Source of the DNA: a virus
Length of the DNA: 64,000 nucleotides
Reading direction: 5' to 3' (one strand)
Virus record (IMG/VR): IMGVR_UViG_3300031705_000002
Location: 30,958 to 94,957 of that record
The notes under the pieces were generated by a model. It made no database searches, was not told the DNA's origin, and worked only from the letters and a program-made list of their open reading frames with translations. Below are positions 6,880 through 60,654 of this stretch, in pieces; the stretch's first letter is position 1; each line of letters opens with the position of its first letter. Both the position numbers and the translations under genes were made by a program.

Positions 6880-7353
6880 CTAATTTTTTTTAAATTTTAA
6901 ATACGCCAAATCATCTGTTCTTAAAAGATGAATCAATTTTTCTTTATTTCCCTTTATTCCTCGTGTTAGGTCAAACCTATACACGGACTTATTAGGTATT
7001 AAGCATTTTCCTTTTCTCCAATAATATCTACAGTACTCAGCATTAGTATGGTATATGTACCATTTTATTCCCTTACCTGTTTCGGAGTTATATAGGGCTA
7101 TACCCTTAGTTTCTAGCTCTTTTTTATACTTCAAGCTTTCCCCCCAATCTATTTTAGGGAACGAAGGATTTGTTTCTACTCTCACAATCGACAGTGAAGA
7201 TAGTTTATTTCCCATATTAAACGTGCCTCCATCTAAGATATAATCAATCATATCTATGTTGAACTCAGAGCATATAGCTGTAAAAGTTTTCTTATCCACA
7301 TATTCCTTCTCAGAAATATATTTTATATATATATCTTTTAAAGTGTATCCCAT
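6880..7353 (-). CDS. Conserved small phage protein, copy A
   Basis: 157 residues, paralogue of the gene at 13116-13580. Shared marks are an ILDG/MLDG segment, an 'IDWxxSxxxKK' segment (IDWGESLKYKK here) and an aromatic 'RYYWRKG' segment (YRFYWKKG in the other copy). It starts at the ATG at 7353, sharing one base with the end of the ring-like gene. No catalytic motif, signal peptide or membrane segment is visible. Position in the tail operon suggests a structural or assembly role. I do not recognise a defined function. Confidence 0.6.
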   Translation of the reverse strand: MGYTLKDIYIKYISEKEYVDKKTFTAICSEFNIDMIDYILDGGTFNMGNKLSSLSIVRVETNPSFPKIDWGESLKYKKELETKGIALYNSETGKGIKWYIYHTNAEYCRYYWRKGKCLIPNKSVYRFDLTRGIKGNKEKLIHLLRTDDLAYLKFKKN

Positions 7354-8051
7354 TATCTGGCAGGTCCTCTACTAGGTGAAGGCGGTGCTGAAACATCCTG
7401 TGCATTATCATTAGTGGTGTCACTTGGAGTGGTCGCCAACAACTGTAATTCCTTAGAAGCAATCCCTTCTGTAATAGCTTGTATCATATCCATAGGTATT
7501 GGGTAGTCATCAGTGCTATTATAACAATCGTTACCCTCACAGTCGAACGTAGCTAATGACTCAGGGTCTTCAAATATACCTCTTATATTTATATAGGATA
7601 GACCATTAGCGTTATAAATATAGATATGGTCCTCAATCATATACGCTCGCCTCTCATGATTAGTATACTTATCATAAGGAAGCCACTGTACAGTTATAGG
7701 GTCTACAATAGGAATAGTCTCTAGCCCTGTTATATCTCCTACATGTGTGATAGCGTCTTTAAAGTTTAACCTAACTGTTTTAGGGATAGGCTCTACAGAC
7801 TTGTATACAGAAGCTCTGGCAGGTAATCTACAGCATTTAGTAGCATCAACTTTCTCTACTTTAATACATTTTAAATCCTGCTCAAGGTGCCTAGTTATAT
7901 TACCATTTCTAGCATAGTCCCTACGTATCAGCATTGCTCGGTAATACTTAATGTTAAATTTAATTTGAGCCAGAGATATATGTTCACTCACATTAGATCT
8001 ACCTCCTCTAACTAAATTTAAAATGTTGTATGCTATTTCATCTAGTGTCAT
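7353..8051 (-). CDS. Tail ring/collar-like structural protein, copy A
   Basis: 232 residues. Begins MTLDEIAYNILNLVRGG, then ISLAQIKFNIKYYRAMLIRRD, a Cys-containing 'DLKCIKV...CCRLP' part, 'HVGDITG', 'YDKYTNHERRAYMIEDHIYI' and 'IRGIFEDPESL', ending in a Pro/Ser-rich tail. The same series of motifs is present in the paralogue at 13580-14275. From memory this is a conserved virion protein of crAss-like phages, probably one of the ring proteins between portal and tail. It sits in a four-gene block that occurs twice in this window. Role inferred. Confidence 0.6.
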   Translation of the reverse strand: MTLDEIAYNILNLVRGGRSNVSEHISLAQIKFNIKYYRAMLIRRDYARNGNITRHLEQDLKCIKVEKVDATKCCRLPARASVYKSVEPIPKTVRLNFKDAITHVGDITGLETIPIVDPITVQWLPYDKYTNHERRAYMIEDHIYIYNANGLSYINIRGIFEDPESLATFDCEGNDCYNSTDDYPIPMDMIQAITEGIASKELQLLATTPSDTTNDNAQDVSAPPSPSRGPAR

Positions 8052-8057
8052 ATCTTT

Positions 8058-9209
8058 CTACACATTAGTTTGTAAATATCCTTCGTATCCTCGTTGTTTG
8101 TTCCATATATGTGCCTGACCTGTTCTTTTAGCCTCATACCCCATCATCTTATGCCAATCATCATTCTTGCATATAGAAGGTATGAACCTAACTTTAATCC
8201 CTCTGTACTCATTTACCATTTCTTTGTGTACATGGCCACAGTGCGCTTCTCTTGAGGTCGTACGAGCAAACATAACAGGTTGCTCAGTAGCCATTATTAA
8301 TGGCATGTCAGCTGCCTTAACTTTGTCTCCGTGTGTAAACATAATCATGTTGATCCCGTACTCGTAGTACTTACGGTGCTCAAATGAATTATCTATTAAC
8401 ACTTGACCATCATTTGTGAAGTACGCATTTAAGTACTCACCGGCGTAGAACATACGTTCATAGTCGTGATTCCCCTGTATAACTACTACGTCAACTGGAG
8501 CATATTGAGATAGATACTGGATTGCTCTTACGATTAATGCGCAGTATCCTACAAATGTTTCTTTCCAATCTGCTGAATCAAATTGAGGTGTACCCTTAGT
8601 GGTAGCCCTACTTAACCCTTCAGAATTCATACCATCATTACCTATTGGTAAGAGTATTTTTTCAATATCTAAACCTTTAGATTTAATCATAAGGTCCTCA
8701 ATCACATTCATATACTCTTCCTCAGCTTGTTTTAAAGTTTGACCTGTATACTTTCCATAGTGAATATCAGGCAAAGATACCTCGTATGTAACGGGATCTT
8801 TTGCTTTGCTAGGTTCTACTCTTGCACGTATCGGGCTGTGGTTCTTAAGGATCTCAATGATTTCAGCCTTAGTGTTATCTATGACTTCATCTTCCCCCTT
8901 AACGACAACAGAGAATCTTTTTTCTCCTCCCATATTCTGCCAGAATTTAACTGACTGAATATCATTCTTATCTATATCGTTCTCTTGTACGAATCTATCA
9001 AAATCATTTAACTCGCTTTGGTCTATGTTTATGTTAGCGTTTGAGAGGACCATACTAGTAAAGCCTCCCATTGCTTCTATCCGCGCTTCCTTCAATGCTT
9101 CTTTACAAAGGTCTACATCGCATTCTAATTTTAAAGCTAATCTCCCTGAGCCCTCTTTAAGGTATCCAGGCTTGAGATGTAAAAACTCTTTAATTTCAGA
9201 CTTCGTCAT
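8058..9209 (-). CDS. Calcineurin-like metallophosphoesterase, copy A
   Basis: 383 residues. The metal-binding motifs are in order: D148-x-H150, G190-N-D192, G246-N-H-D249, H293-G-D295 and G325-H-V-H328, the layout of the calcineurin-like phosphoesterase superfamily (two-metal phosphoesterase or nuclease). The first 50 residues (KPGYLKEGSGRLALKLECD, then a helix with KEALKEARIEA) look like a small helix-turn-helix. Copy B at 14276-15454 has a different N-terminal domain. The start at 9209 overlaps the end of the holin-like gene by four bases (ATGA). Substrate unknown; DNA or RNA ends are plausible given the putative DNA-binding domain, but this is inference. Confidence 0.85.
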   Translation of the reverse strand: MTKSEIKEFLHLKPGYLKEGSGRLALKLECDVDLCKEALKEARIEAMGGFTSMVLSNANINIDQSELNDFDRFVQENDIDKNDIQSVKFWQNMGGEKRFSVVVKGEDEVIDNTKAEIIEILKNHSPIRARVEPSKAKDPVTYEVSLPDIHYGKYTGQTLKQAEEEYMNVIEDLMIKSKGLDIEKILLPIGNDGMNSEGLSRATTKGTPQFDSADWKETFVGYCALIVRAIQYLSQYAPVDVVVIQGNHDYERMFYAGEYLNAYFTNDGQVLIDNSFEHRKYYEYGINMIMFTHGDKVKAADMPLIMATEQPVMFARTTSREAHCGHVHKEMVNEYRGIKVRFIPSICKNDDWHKMMGYEAKRTGQAHIWNKQRGYEGYLQTNV

Positions 9210-55846: not shown

Positions 55847-56041
55847 ATGGAAGTTACACTAGACAACTTCGTGGAAAACCTATCAACAATGGAGCTATTC
55901 TCATTCCACAAAGAATGTACAGATAGAATAGACTCAGCCAAAGAAGAAATCAAGATGGTCTCTTTACTACTACCTGCTTTAACAGCAGAGATAGAAACTC
56001 GTAAGAATGAATACGAGAAGGTTATGGATAGAGATTTATAA
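55847..56041 (+). CDS. Small coiled-coil protein, unknown
   Basis: 64 residues: VENLSTMELFSFHKECTDRI, then AKEEIKMVSLLLPALTAEIE and a charged end. Helical throughout. Starts three bases after the previous gene stops, so probably co-translated. It ends immediately before the hairpin-rich non-coding stretch. Confidence 0.5.
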   Translation: MEVTLDNFVENLSTMELFSFHKECTDRIDSAKEEIKMVSLLLPALTAEIETRKNEYEKVMDRDL

Positions 56042-56644
56042 CAATACTGCTTACATCGGAACGCGCTTGGACTTTAATTAGGTTAAGAGAGTTAAAAAAC
56101 TGAGTTCGATGTAGGTATCTTATTAATGGGAAGCAGAGTTAGTAGGATAAAGCCCCAGAAAGCTCTGCCAACCATTTGATTTACTCTTGTCCAATCAGTG
56201 GGAAAGATATTACCGTTTGTAAAATGGCTCACTGTTAACCTCAAGAGGAACTGATCTAGAAATAGTTCAACCAGAGATAACATGCCCTTAAGGTTAATTA
56301 AAGTTAGAGTTGACTCTAACAGCCGCGATATACCATATCAAGGATCACAACCTTGCAAGAGTTTTTAGCTTAACTTTCTCGTGATATAGTTAACATGGGT
56401 ACATCCCTATCATCCACCGAGTTGAAAATATTCTATATCAGTACAAATGCTAAGTGCAAGAGTCATAACACGGTTGATCTCGTGAAATGACTGATAGAGA
56501 GAGTTTTATTATTATTCACTGTCTAATCTGCCCTTGAGGTGAAGTAGACTTAAGCGTGCAAGTCGTAGGTGATTATTAATTTAGAGGTATGGGTATATTC
56601 CCCATTAAGACATCTAGCGCACCTCTTAACATTAAACACACACC
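56042..56644 (+). ncRNA. Candidate large structured non-coding RNA (about 600 bases)
   Basis: No credible gene in 603 bases, yet it is packed with inverted repeats. Examples: TACATCGGA/TTCGATGTA (56052-56060 with 56105-56113); GCAGAG/CTCTGC (56133-56138 with 56163-56168); CCATTT/AAATGG (56172-56177 with 56222-56227); GTTAGAG-TTGA-CTCTAAC (56303-56320); CAAGG/CCTTG (56339-56343 with 56351-56355). Further: AGTCATaaCACG with CGTGaaATGACT (56461-56492, symmetric internal loop); GACTT/AAGTC (56547-56551 with 56560-56564); AGAGGT/ACCTCT (56583-56588 with 56621-56626) enclosing ATGGG/CCCAT. Size and the nearby tRNA-like element recall the large phage RNAs ROOL and GOLLD, but I see no proven match. 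Confidence 0.5.
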
Positions 56645-56806
56645 ATGAAACAAGAAGCATACTTATCAGTAAAGAAAGCAATTAGAGAGTATAAACTAAG
56701 AACTAAACTAAACCCCTTCAATGGTAACAATATCAAAGGAAGTAGCGGAGTTTCAACAGCTTCAGATAAAAGCACTGCAACAAGCAATAACAGACTTAAA
56801 AGATAA
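56645..56806 (+). CDS. Small basic protein, uncertain
   Basis: 53 residues (MKQEAYLSVKKAIREYKLRT, then KLNPFNG and a Ser/Asn-rich tail). The first 26 residues look protein-like; the rest overlaps the next gene in another frame, so it may be a truncated or chance frame. Clean ATG after an A/C-rich spacer. Confidence 0.35.
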   Translation: MKQEAYLSVKKAIREYKLRTKLNPFNGNNIKGSSGVSTASDKSTATSNNRLKR

Positions 56807-57109: not shown

Positions 57110-57152
57110 GAAACAGATGGTCAATAGAGAGGTTCGATTCCTCTCTGTTTCA
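57110..57152 (+). ncRNA. tRNA-like minihelix: acceptor stem plus T-arm, no D or anticodon arm
   Basis: GAAACAG (57110-57116) pairs perfectly with CTGTTTC (57145-57151). The canonical T-arm AGAGG-TTCGATT-CCTCT (57128-57144) stacks directly on it, and A57152 is a normal discriminator. Only 11 bases (57117-57127) replace the D and anticodon arms; CCA is not encoded. It cannot be a decoding tRNA. Such a minihelix is the minimal substrate of RNase P, so it may be a processing signal between two mRNAs. Alternatives are a decayed tRNA or an old attachment site. Confidence 0.65.
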
Positions 57153-58480: not shown

Positions 58481-60379
58481 ATGATCAAGTTCGTAGGAAA
58501 TCCAAGGTTAGTTGATTGTTGTGAAGTAAGCACAATCGATGAAGCAGTGGCATACTGTGAATCTAAATCAATACTAGGAGTAGACACAGAGACAACAGGT
58601 CTTAACTTCATGGAATCAGAGATGACCATGCTACAAATAGGTGATGAAGATACACAGTTTGTTATTGACACACGAGCTGTAAATATTATCCCCCTGAAGA
58701 AGGTACTTGAGAACAAGCATATTACAAAAGTATTGCACAATGTTAAGTTTGACTACAAATTCTTATTAAAGAATGGTATAAGACTGAACAATGTATGGGA
58801 TACTATGCTTGCCTCTCAAGTATTAAATTGTGGGAAACAAGTATCACACAGCTTAAGCAACTTAGTCTCTTCTCATCTACATATTGAAATGAGTAAAGAG
58901 ATAAGAACTACATTTATAGGTTATACTGGGGAATTCACAGAGTCTCAAATAGTATATGGAGCTAAAGATGTAGAGTATCTATTAAATTTGCAAGCGTTGC
59001 AGATTAAATACATTGAAGATTTGGACATGGTAATGCTGATGCAGTTAGAGAACGACGCATCATTAGCTTATGGTGACATAGAATTCAATGGTATTGCATT
59101 AGATATACCACGATGGAATGAGTTAGCACTAGATGCAGAGAAATCTAGAGTTGAGATGGAACACACATTAGATGACTTCGTCAAAACTAAAGAATCTCTA
59201 TCTCAATTTAATGCTACACACTTCCAAACAGACATGTTCATGGAAGACACAGACATCCGTAAGATTGATGTGAAATGGACATCACCTAAACAAGTGTTGA
59301 ATGTATTTAACACTTATGGCATTGATGTAGAAGATGTGAATGCAAATACACTACTTCCATTTAGAAAGGATGAGTTTATTGACATTTATATTAAATACAA
59401 AGAACAAGCAAAGCTATCCACAAGCTATGGAGATAAGTTCCTACAAAATGTAGACTCAGATAACAGAGTTAGAACAAACTTCAAGCAAATACTTAACACA
59501 GGTAGGATAGCTTCATCATCACCTAATATGCAACAGATACCAGCTAACAACAAGTATCGTAATTGTTTTATATCAGGTAATAGTGATTGGGTATTTGTAT
59601 CAAGTGATTATTCTTCACAAGAATTAGCAATTATAGCAACAGGTAGTAAAGATCCTGTATGGCTTAAAGCGTTAGAAGAAGGTAAGGATCTTCACAGTGT
59701 ATGTGCAGCATTAGTATATGGTGACAAATGGAGGGATGCAGCTGAAGTTGGTTGCTCTTATTATGCGTATGCTAATTTAGGTGGAGGCACAGAGCGTGCG
59801 CAACTTAAATGCAAGTGCAAGGAACACAAGAAACTCAGAACAAATGTTAAATCAATTAACTTTGGTTTAGCTTATGGTATGGGTCCAATGAAACTTGCAG
59901 ATACACTACTCATTTCAGAGAAAGCAGCAGAGAGGTTAATCAAAGACTATTTCAAAGCATTTCCCTCAATTGAGAACTTCCTTAAAAACTTAGGTACCTA
60001 CGGACTACAAACAGGACATATCAAAACATATGCTCCTTATCGTAGAATGAGATGGTTCCCAGAGTGGAGGGGTTATGAAACTCCTCAAAAGGATAAAGGT
60101 AAAATTGAACGTGCAAGTAAGAACACACCAATTCAAGGTAGTGGAGCTGATATGTGTAAATCAGCATTAGTATTAGTGCGTGATTACATATATGAGAACG
60201 ACTACCCTGCTAAAATAGTAATGACTGTACACGATCAAATTGATACTATAGTTAGAACTGATAAAGCAGAGGAGTGGTGTAGCATATTTCAAGGATTAAT
60301 GGAACAGTCTACTCTAGAGATAATACCTTCGGGTTTATTGAAAGCAGACACAAACATAAGCCAGACATGGGAAAAATAG
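58481..60379 (+). CDS. DNA polymerase, family A, with 3'-5' exonuclease
   Basis: 632 residues. Exonuclease domain: VDTETTGL (34-41, motif Exo I), HNVKFDYKFLL (86-96, Exo II) and YGAKDVEYL (159-167, Exo III). Polymerase domain: NTGRIASSSPNMQQIP, motif A SSDYSSQEL (D about 376), motif B NVKSINFGLAYG, and motif C H584-D585-Q586. The last normally reads HDE, so the second carboxylate is changed to Gln; the catalytic Asp is kept. A Cys-rich insertion (CSYYAYANLGGGTERAQLKC, then CKEHK) precedes motif B. It replicates the phage genome with the helicase downstream. Confidence 0.95.
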   Translation: MIKFVGNPRLVDCCEVSTIDEAVAYCESKSILGVDTETTGLNFMESEMTMLQIGDEDTQFVIDTRAVNIIPLKKVLENKHITKVLHNVKFDYKFLLKNGIRLNNVWDTMLASQVLNCGKQVSHSLSNLVSSHLHIEMSKEIRTTFIGYTGEFTESQIVYGAKDVEYLLNLQALQIKYIEDLDMVMLMQLENDASLAYGDIEFNGIALDIPRWNELALDAEKSRVEMEHTLDDFVKTKESLSQFNATHFQTDMFMEDTDIRKIDVKWTSPKQVLNVFNTYGIDVEDVNANTLLPFRKDEFIDIYIKYKEQAKLSTSYGDKFLQNVDSDNRVRTNFKQILNTGRIASSSPNMQQIPANNKYRNCFISGNSDWVFVSSDYSSQELAIIATGSKDPVWLKALEEGKDLHSVCAALVYGDKWRDAAEVGCSYYAYANLGGGTERAQLKCKCKEHKKLRTNVKSINFGLAYGMGPMKLADTLLISEKAAERLIKDYFKAFPSIENFLKNLGTYGLQTGHIKTYAPYRRMRWFPEWRGYETPQKDKGKIERASKNTPIQGSGADMCKSALVLVRDYIYENDYPAKIVMTVHDQIDTIVRTDKAEEWCSIFQGLMEQSTLEIIPSGLLKADTNISQTWEK

Positions 60380-60654
60380 AAGACGTGACAGGAGCAGAGC
60401 TACGCCCAGGAGATTATGTAGCAGTACAGGGGTGGCAAGGGCTAGAGATAGCGAAGGTTAGAAGGTTTTCATCCTCTTGTATGTTGTGTGATTATACACA
60501 CGTTAGAATAGATGGAACTAAATGGGATGGTAGATTACAACCCTACTTACCTAACCATCCTCACACAGCAAGCAATGAAAAATACCCTAACAGAATGCTT
60601 AAAGTATTAAAAGTAGAAAAAGAGCAATATGACAGATACTACCAGAACCTCTAA
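60367..60654 (+). CDS. Small protein between polymerase and helicase, unknown
   Basis: 95 residues. LRPGDYVAVQGWQGLEIAKV is KOW/SH3-like; two Cys (SCMLC) follow, then RIDGTKWDGRLQPYLPN. It overlaps the polymerase end by 13 bases and the helicase start by 26, so the three are translationally coupled and it may be an accessory replication factor. Not recognised. Confidence 0.55.
   Translation: MGKIEDVTGAELRPGDYVAVQGWQGLEIAKVRRFSSSCMLCDYTHVRIDGTKWDGRLQPYLPNHPHTASNEKYPNRMLKVLKVEKEQYDRYYQNL

Follow-up and report, generated by a model that had tools for sequence, protein, structure and literature searches.

GOLLD and ROOL are large phage RNAs, each forming a single family of unknown function. In the cryo-EM analysis of GOLLD, ROOL and OLE, GOLLD was found to assemble into a homo-14-mer cage; its 3' domain is conserved and its 5' domain variable (PMC12286853). 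A sequence-only reading had compared with these RNAs a non-coding stretch at 56042-56644 (plus strand) in the 64,000-nucleotide window analysed here, which spans positions 30958-94957 of a virus record 94,957 bases long; it was regarded as a candidate large phage RNA resembling ROOL or GOLLD, or else belonging to a new class. The stretch takes up exactly the space separating ORF 55847-56041 from ORF 56645-56806 and has 14-18 stop codons in each of the six frames, in agreement with the earlier statement that no gene fits. Likewise, no frame is open across all homologues of module A or of module C (see below). The cluster lies among small genes that form a block, with the gene for a family A DNA polymerase (polA, 58481-60379) following some 2 kb downstream and other replication genes close by. 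Since the GenBank phage closest to the window's terminase is Cellulophaga phage phi14:2 (38.5% identity), which belongs to the Crassvirales, the source is probably a crAss-like phage with a marine Bacteroidota host.

With ROOL (RF03087), the stretch shares phage origin and a size of ~600 nt, but neither the window nor the 95-kb record has a match at the cut-off of 99.1 bits (in a search without a ROOL positive control), and the stretch has no single conserved fold. With GOLLD (RF02032), it has in common that a large structured phage RNA region is found near tRNA-like elements and, in relatives, in the same gene block. In contrast to GOLLD, its modules are separable and permuted, and sequence and covariance matches are absent (cut-off 150 bits; none in the window or the whole record, and none in the stretch up to E 10). 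Genuine Rfam GOLLD RNAs of 197-222 bits were found with the same library in five related phages, located in or near the gene block upstream of the polymerase: L026 (5437-5819), L061 (3910-4299), L063 (4024-4443), L068 (4040-4435) and L095 (1375-1757). GOLLD is accompanied by module X in L061, and by a tmRNA and module C in L095, so that X and C are different RNAs and not GOLLD counterparts. We also rejected an in-place replacement of GOLLD: relative to ORF 56645, the window RNA is on the upstream side, whereas GOLLD is found downstream of the homologue of this ORF in L061, L063 and L068.

The covariance-model search that had been recommended, carried out with Rfam 15 (introns, ribozymes, riboswitches, tmRNA and rRNA included), gave no known family at the gathering score, either in the stretch or elsewhere in the window; there were only weak sub-threshold matches (15.4 bits, S4 leader, minus strand). 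ARAGORN found no tRNA or tmRNA in the window. Resemblances to 16S rRNA loops (AGCCGCG, GGTGAAGT) were discarded, their length being within chance and an Rfam match lacking. A CRISPR-like array or tandem repeat was rejected because the stretch contains no direct repeats, whether tandem or arranged as in CRISPR arrays; one 10-nt inverted repeat, between modules X and A, is near our estimate of chance expectation. Of the two identities considered earlier, ROOL/GOLLD is thus left without a match, while a new class is now backed by the covariation of module C.

The hairpins that had been singled out are present: the nested one (AGTCAT-AA-CACG..CGTG-AA-ATGACT) at 56461-56492 and a seven-bp stem with TTGA loop (GTTAGAG-TTGA-CTCTAAC) at 56303-56320. 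The hairpin density that had been noticed turned out to be at chance level, both against shuffles and against other parts of the window. We counted perfect stems with loops of 3-30 nt in the stretch and in 300 dinucleotide shuffles, obtaining 19 stems of at least 5 bp (shuffle mean 15.5; equalled or exceeded by 64 of 300 shuffles), five of at least 6 bp (mean 3.9; 102 of 300) and one of at least 7 bp (mean 1.1; 201 of 300). As many 6-bp stems as in the stretch, or more, are held by 52 of the 105 window tiles. Nor is the folding energy distinctive: the MFE z-score of the whole stretch (-2.1 to -2.6) is only mildly low, is equalled on the minus strand (-2.6) and is surpassed by several coding tiles of the window, down to -5.8. 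The tiles 58501-59103 and 60001-60603, in or around the polymerase gene, had z-scores of -5.8 and -5.5 (25 dinucleotide shuffles each). Judged by its single sequence, the stretch is unremarkable; the actual signal is comparative and consists of conserved, covarying modules. Single-sequence hairpin density was a poor guide, as the modules came to light by comparison and not by folding energy.

For this comparison, the polymerase served as bait to collect related IMG/VR loci (30, then 80). Homologous pieces were detected by blastn and nhmmer in L002 (same contig as L036) and L003/L004, and patterns built on the conserved pieces added L033, L037-L043, L046 and L135-L139. Altogether, homologous pieces are present in about 15 IMG/VR phage contigs, none of which matches the stretch end to end; as several contigs are near-duplicates, contig counts do not equal lineage counts. 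The window carries the modules X, Y, A, B, C and D contiguously, in tandem. In L036/L038, A and C are present, but B is missing between them. In L042, the order is D, then A, B, C, with the modules side by side on one strand, and in L043 A is followed by a different element, H, which also occurs in L139 and L042. X is found without the other modules in L061. C is mostly found apart from the others: L003, L033, L037, L039-L041, L046, L095/L135, L136 and L137-L139 carry it but none of A, B, D and X, as far as these contigs reach; many contigs are fragments, so that the absence of a module there is weak evidence. The presence of modules singly, in other combinations or reordered points to separate units, permutation being the main reason.

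Chance hairpins in an ordinary functionless spacer would account for the unremarkable stem number and MFE. We nevertheless consider this explanation highly improbable, since the shared pieces have 75-88% DNA identity in phages whose polymerases are only ~52-63% identical at the protein level, and for C it is ruled out by covariation. GenBank phages and plasmids gave no match to the stretch; the candidate uncultured phage MedDCM-OCT-S04-C24 was dismissed, as its weak blastn match is antisense within a gene and lacks a match to the covariance model of C (R1). The modules are not described in any title or abstract that we found in the open-access literature.

Module C (56513-56577, plus strand) is a 65-nt RNA with a predicted three-way junction. 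From an alignment of 12 sequences (11 distinct), RNAalifold gave a consensus structure with P1 (6 pairs), P2 (5 pairs plus a short inner hairpin) and P3 (3 pairs, UGCAAGU loop). Paired cells make up 97.5% of the alignment versus only 33-54% in slid versions, a percentage that is favoured by predicting the structure from the same alignment. The firm part is the two-sided changes, seen in 6 of the 18 pairs, with a covariation score reached by none of 500 shuffles; they include CAC/GTG, TAC/GTA and CGC/GCG in P1, and GTCTA and GCTTA with their partners in P2. The examination of covariation across related phages, as proposed earlier, thus revealed in C the compensatory changes preserving a common fold that are expected of a structured non-coding RNA. 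The copy in L095 has a long insertion in place of the tip of the inner hairpin, the core being retained. The MFE folds predicted for single C sequences, that of the window included, depart from the covariation fold, so that the structure of C rests on covariation and not on energy; we count this departure against the reading as independent units put forward below. On these comparative grounds, the fold of C, its plus-strand orientation and the modular permutation can be taken as demonstrated, and at least this one module is clearly conserved in evolution and new to Rfam.

The orientation follows from G-U pairs that are conserved in C and from its GU/GC exchanges, both favouring an RNA of the plus strand. 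They also speak against a DNA-level structure, e.g. an origin of replication close to the polymerase gene. Such an element would suit an intergenic site close to polA and other replication genes, but C is found in other places too, after the helicase gene in L041 and after polA in L137 and L138, and we give this possibility very little credence.

R1 matched 16 places in 100 sources (weakest E 1.9e-7; none further up to E 5), with at most one match per record across the 42 records searched whole. The cultured phages phi14:2 and FpV4 gave no match to R1, and C was not detected in 395 Bacteroidota genomes, searched with strict filters but no positive control. Pattern matches in L047-L054 (genome contigs) and L044/L045, which had been selected by the pattern itself, were taken as chance (R1 scores of at most 26 bits versus 69-95 for complete members). 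In L046 (8752-9854) and L139 (reverse complement, 6964-8364), C is part of non-coding stretches of at least 1 kb that resemble further RNA arrays; in the latter, a TTTCTCTTTATTAAATAG-like spacer recurs, possibly as a promoter.

The surroundings of C bear on the question of whether the modules are cis-acting intercistronic elements of an early operon mRNA, involved in processing, stability, attenuation or translation control. C is wedged tightly between genes, in L041 beginning at the helicase stop codon, and a terminator-like T run after C in L046 and L095/L136 leaves room for a role in cis. Most C copies lack this T run, however, and the genes directly adjoining C upstream and downstream differ from phage to phage, which speaks against a riboswitch and against cis control of one gene. 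Furthermore, loops and junction of C are conserved beyond the needs of a simple processing hairpin. Taken together, we regard cis elements as rather unlikely.

The other modules, all read from the plus strand, are candidates weaker than C. Module X (56044-56127), with a long closing stem (TTACATCG/CGATGTAG) and an inner arm, has a homologue of 82% identity in L061 (2555-2644), directly upstream of the ORF 56645 homologue. The same fold is predicted in both phages, one arm being longer in L061; the two sequences show no compensatory changes. Hairpin Y (56125-56176; AATGG/CCATT and GCAGAG/CTCTGC) is a single-sequence fold with a z-score of -3.7, reached by 0 of 500 shuffles, and has no homologue among the relatives. 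Module A (56184-56361), closed by CTCTTG/CAAGAG and including the TTGA-loop stem, has homologues in L036/L038, L042 and L043. Among the four distinct sequences, the closing stem shows one two-sided change and one GC-to-GU change; the core is highly conserved, leaving little room for covariation. For module B (56372-56505), which includes the nested hairpin, a homologue exists only in L042 (12302-12430), and the two sequences differ by two compensatory pairs in a variable arm. Module D (56583-56626), a hairpin closed by AGAGGT/ACCTCT, has its homologue in L042 (12093-12133) ahead of A, again with two compensatory pairs between the two sequences, here in the closing stem.

We propose, with a probability of roughly one half, that independent, trans-acting RNA units are clustered in tandem along the stretch, on the plus strand of a probably crAss-like marine phage. 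The data suggest exchangeable RNA genes of unknown job and not one giant RNA. The units X, Y, A, B, C and D would each be closed by a helix of their own, and each would constitute a cassette that is lost, gained or reordered alone, like the tRNA genes in phage tRNA arrays. Phage tRNA arrays and tmRNA genes are similar in that small structured RNA units are lined up and gained or lost singly, but the window modules are neither tRNAs nor tmRNAs. The units would be transcribed together with the small, presumably early genes of the block and fold separately; they may stay embedded in the early transcript or be cut out as small RNAs, and, while an infection proceeds, would work in trans on a partner from the host or the phage. 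A search of the window's module borders gave no promoter or terminator beyond chance, so that we can only infer a release as separate RNAs. Counted against independent units are the contiguity of the modules in the window, as expected of one RNA, and the small number of sequences on which B, D and X (two each) and Y (one) are based.

This contiguity leads to the alternative of one large ornate RNA of ~600 nt whose domains are exchangeable and which functions as a unit, e.g. as a homo-oligomer like GOLLD/ROOL. The modules are directly adjacent on one strand not only in the window but also in L042, GOLLD itself combines a conserved 3' with a variable 5' domain (PMC12286853), and GOLLD is found within the same gene block of related phages. 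Yet C and X are found where the other modules are missing, content and order vary, and an overall closing helix is not conserved, all of which makes a single RNA doubtful. Of the large phage RNA envisaged from the sequence, a structured phage non-coding RNA was retained, whereas a single 600-base molecule is not supported, given the separable modules.

Beyond this locus, the reading as independent units could tentatively be extended to a repertoire of RNA cassettes, autonomous and exchangeable, in marine crAss-like phages, comprising several new families shuffled like genes (X, A, B, C and D here; E, H and others in relatives), possibly an RNA effector panel against the host or host defences. 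We lean somewhat against so broad a view, although it is supported by module E, present at 17 loci in related phages, on the downstream side of the helicase gene (e.g. L041, 5944-6023), and adjoining C in L033, L037 and L039-L041. E covaries as a predicted pseudoknot: in an alignment from which the structure was also read off, all cells are paired, four pairs show two-sided changes, and none of 500 shuffles attained its covariation score. The loci scanned gave no Rfam match for E. A single gene neighbourhood in these related marine phages contains at least two well-covarying RNA families missing from Rfam (C in the window, E in relatives) and several candidate RNAs beside them, with modules recombining as units. 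This natural deletion and permutation series makes the role of each module testable singly.

The tRNA-like element that had been noticed close by was found at 57110-57152 (plus strand). It is minimal (~42 nt), consisting of a 7-bp acceptor, an 11-nt linker beginning with ATGGT, a T arm and a terminal A, with neither D nor anticodon arm. We treat it as a neighbour of the cluster, of which it is at most a putative member. Counterparts occur in L032 (7875-7917), L057 (4625-4667), L061 (4388-4430 and 3294-3334), L063 (4455-4497), L068 (4447-4489) and L069 (3701-3743), and longer forms in L003, L056, L062, L064, L066, L067 and L071; the aligned relatives show compensated changes in acceptor and T stem. 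In L063 and L068, the element begins 12 nt past the 3' end of the GOLLD match and may, given this spacing, mark the GOLLD 3' end for RNase P.

Further tRNAs, tmRNAs and permuted tmRNAs lie near the locus in related phages. A permuted phage tmRNA (RF04321) was identified in L007 (333-516) and L008 (468-651), the tag reading of the latter ending in LAA-stop, and an ordinary phage tmRNA (RF00023) in L095 (3402-3812). Two shared non-coding families of ~450 nt upstream of the polymerase, without Rfam match where scanned, are represented by L009 (6011-6462), L018 (2-298) and L112 (2841-3279) and by L008 (1-480), L087 (643-1060) and L113 (536-783), respectively. Finally, L041 (6413-6572) and L057 (11508-11667) encode a tRNA-Leu-like gene that was missed by a simple tRNA pattern of normal length and carries a 129-nt insert between acceptor and T arm.
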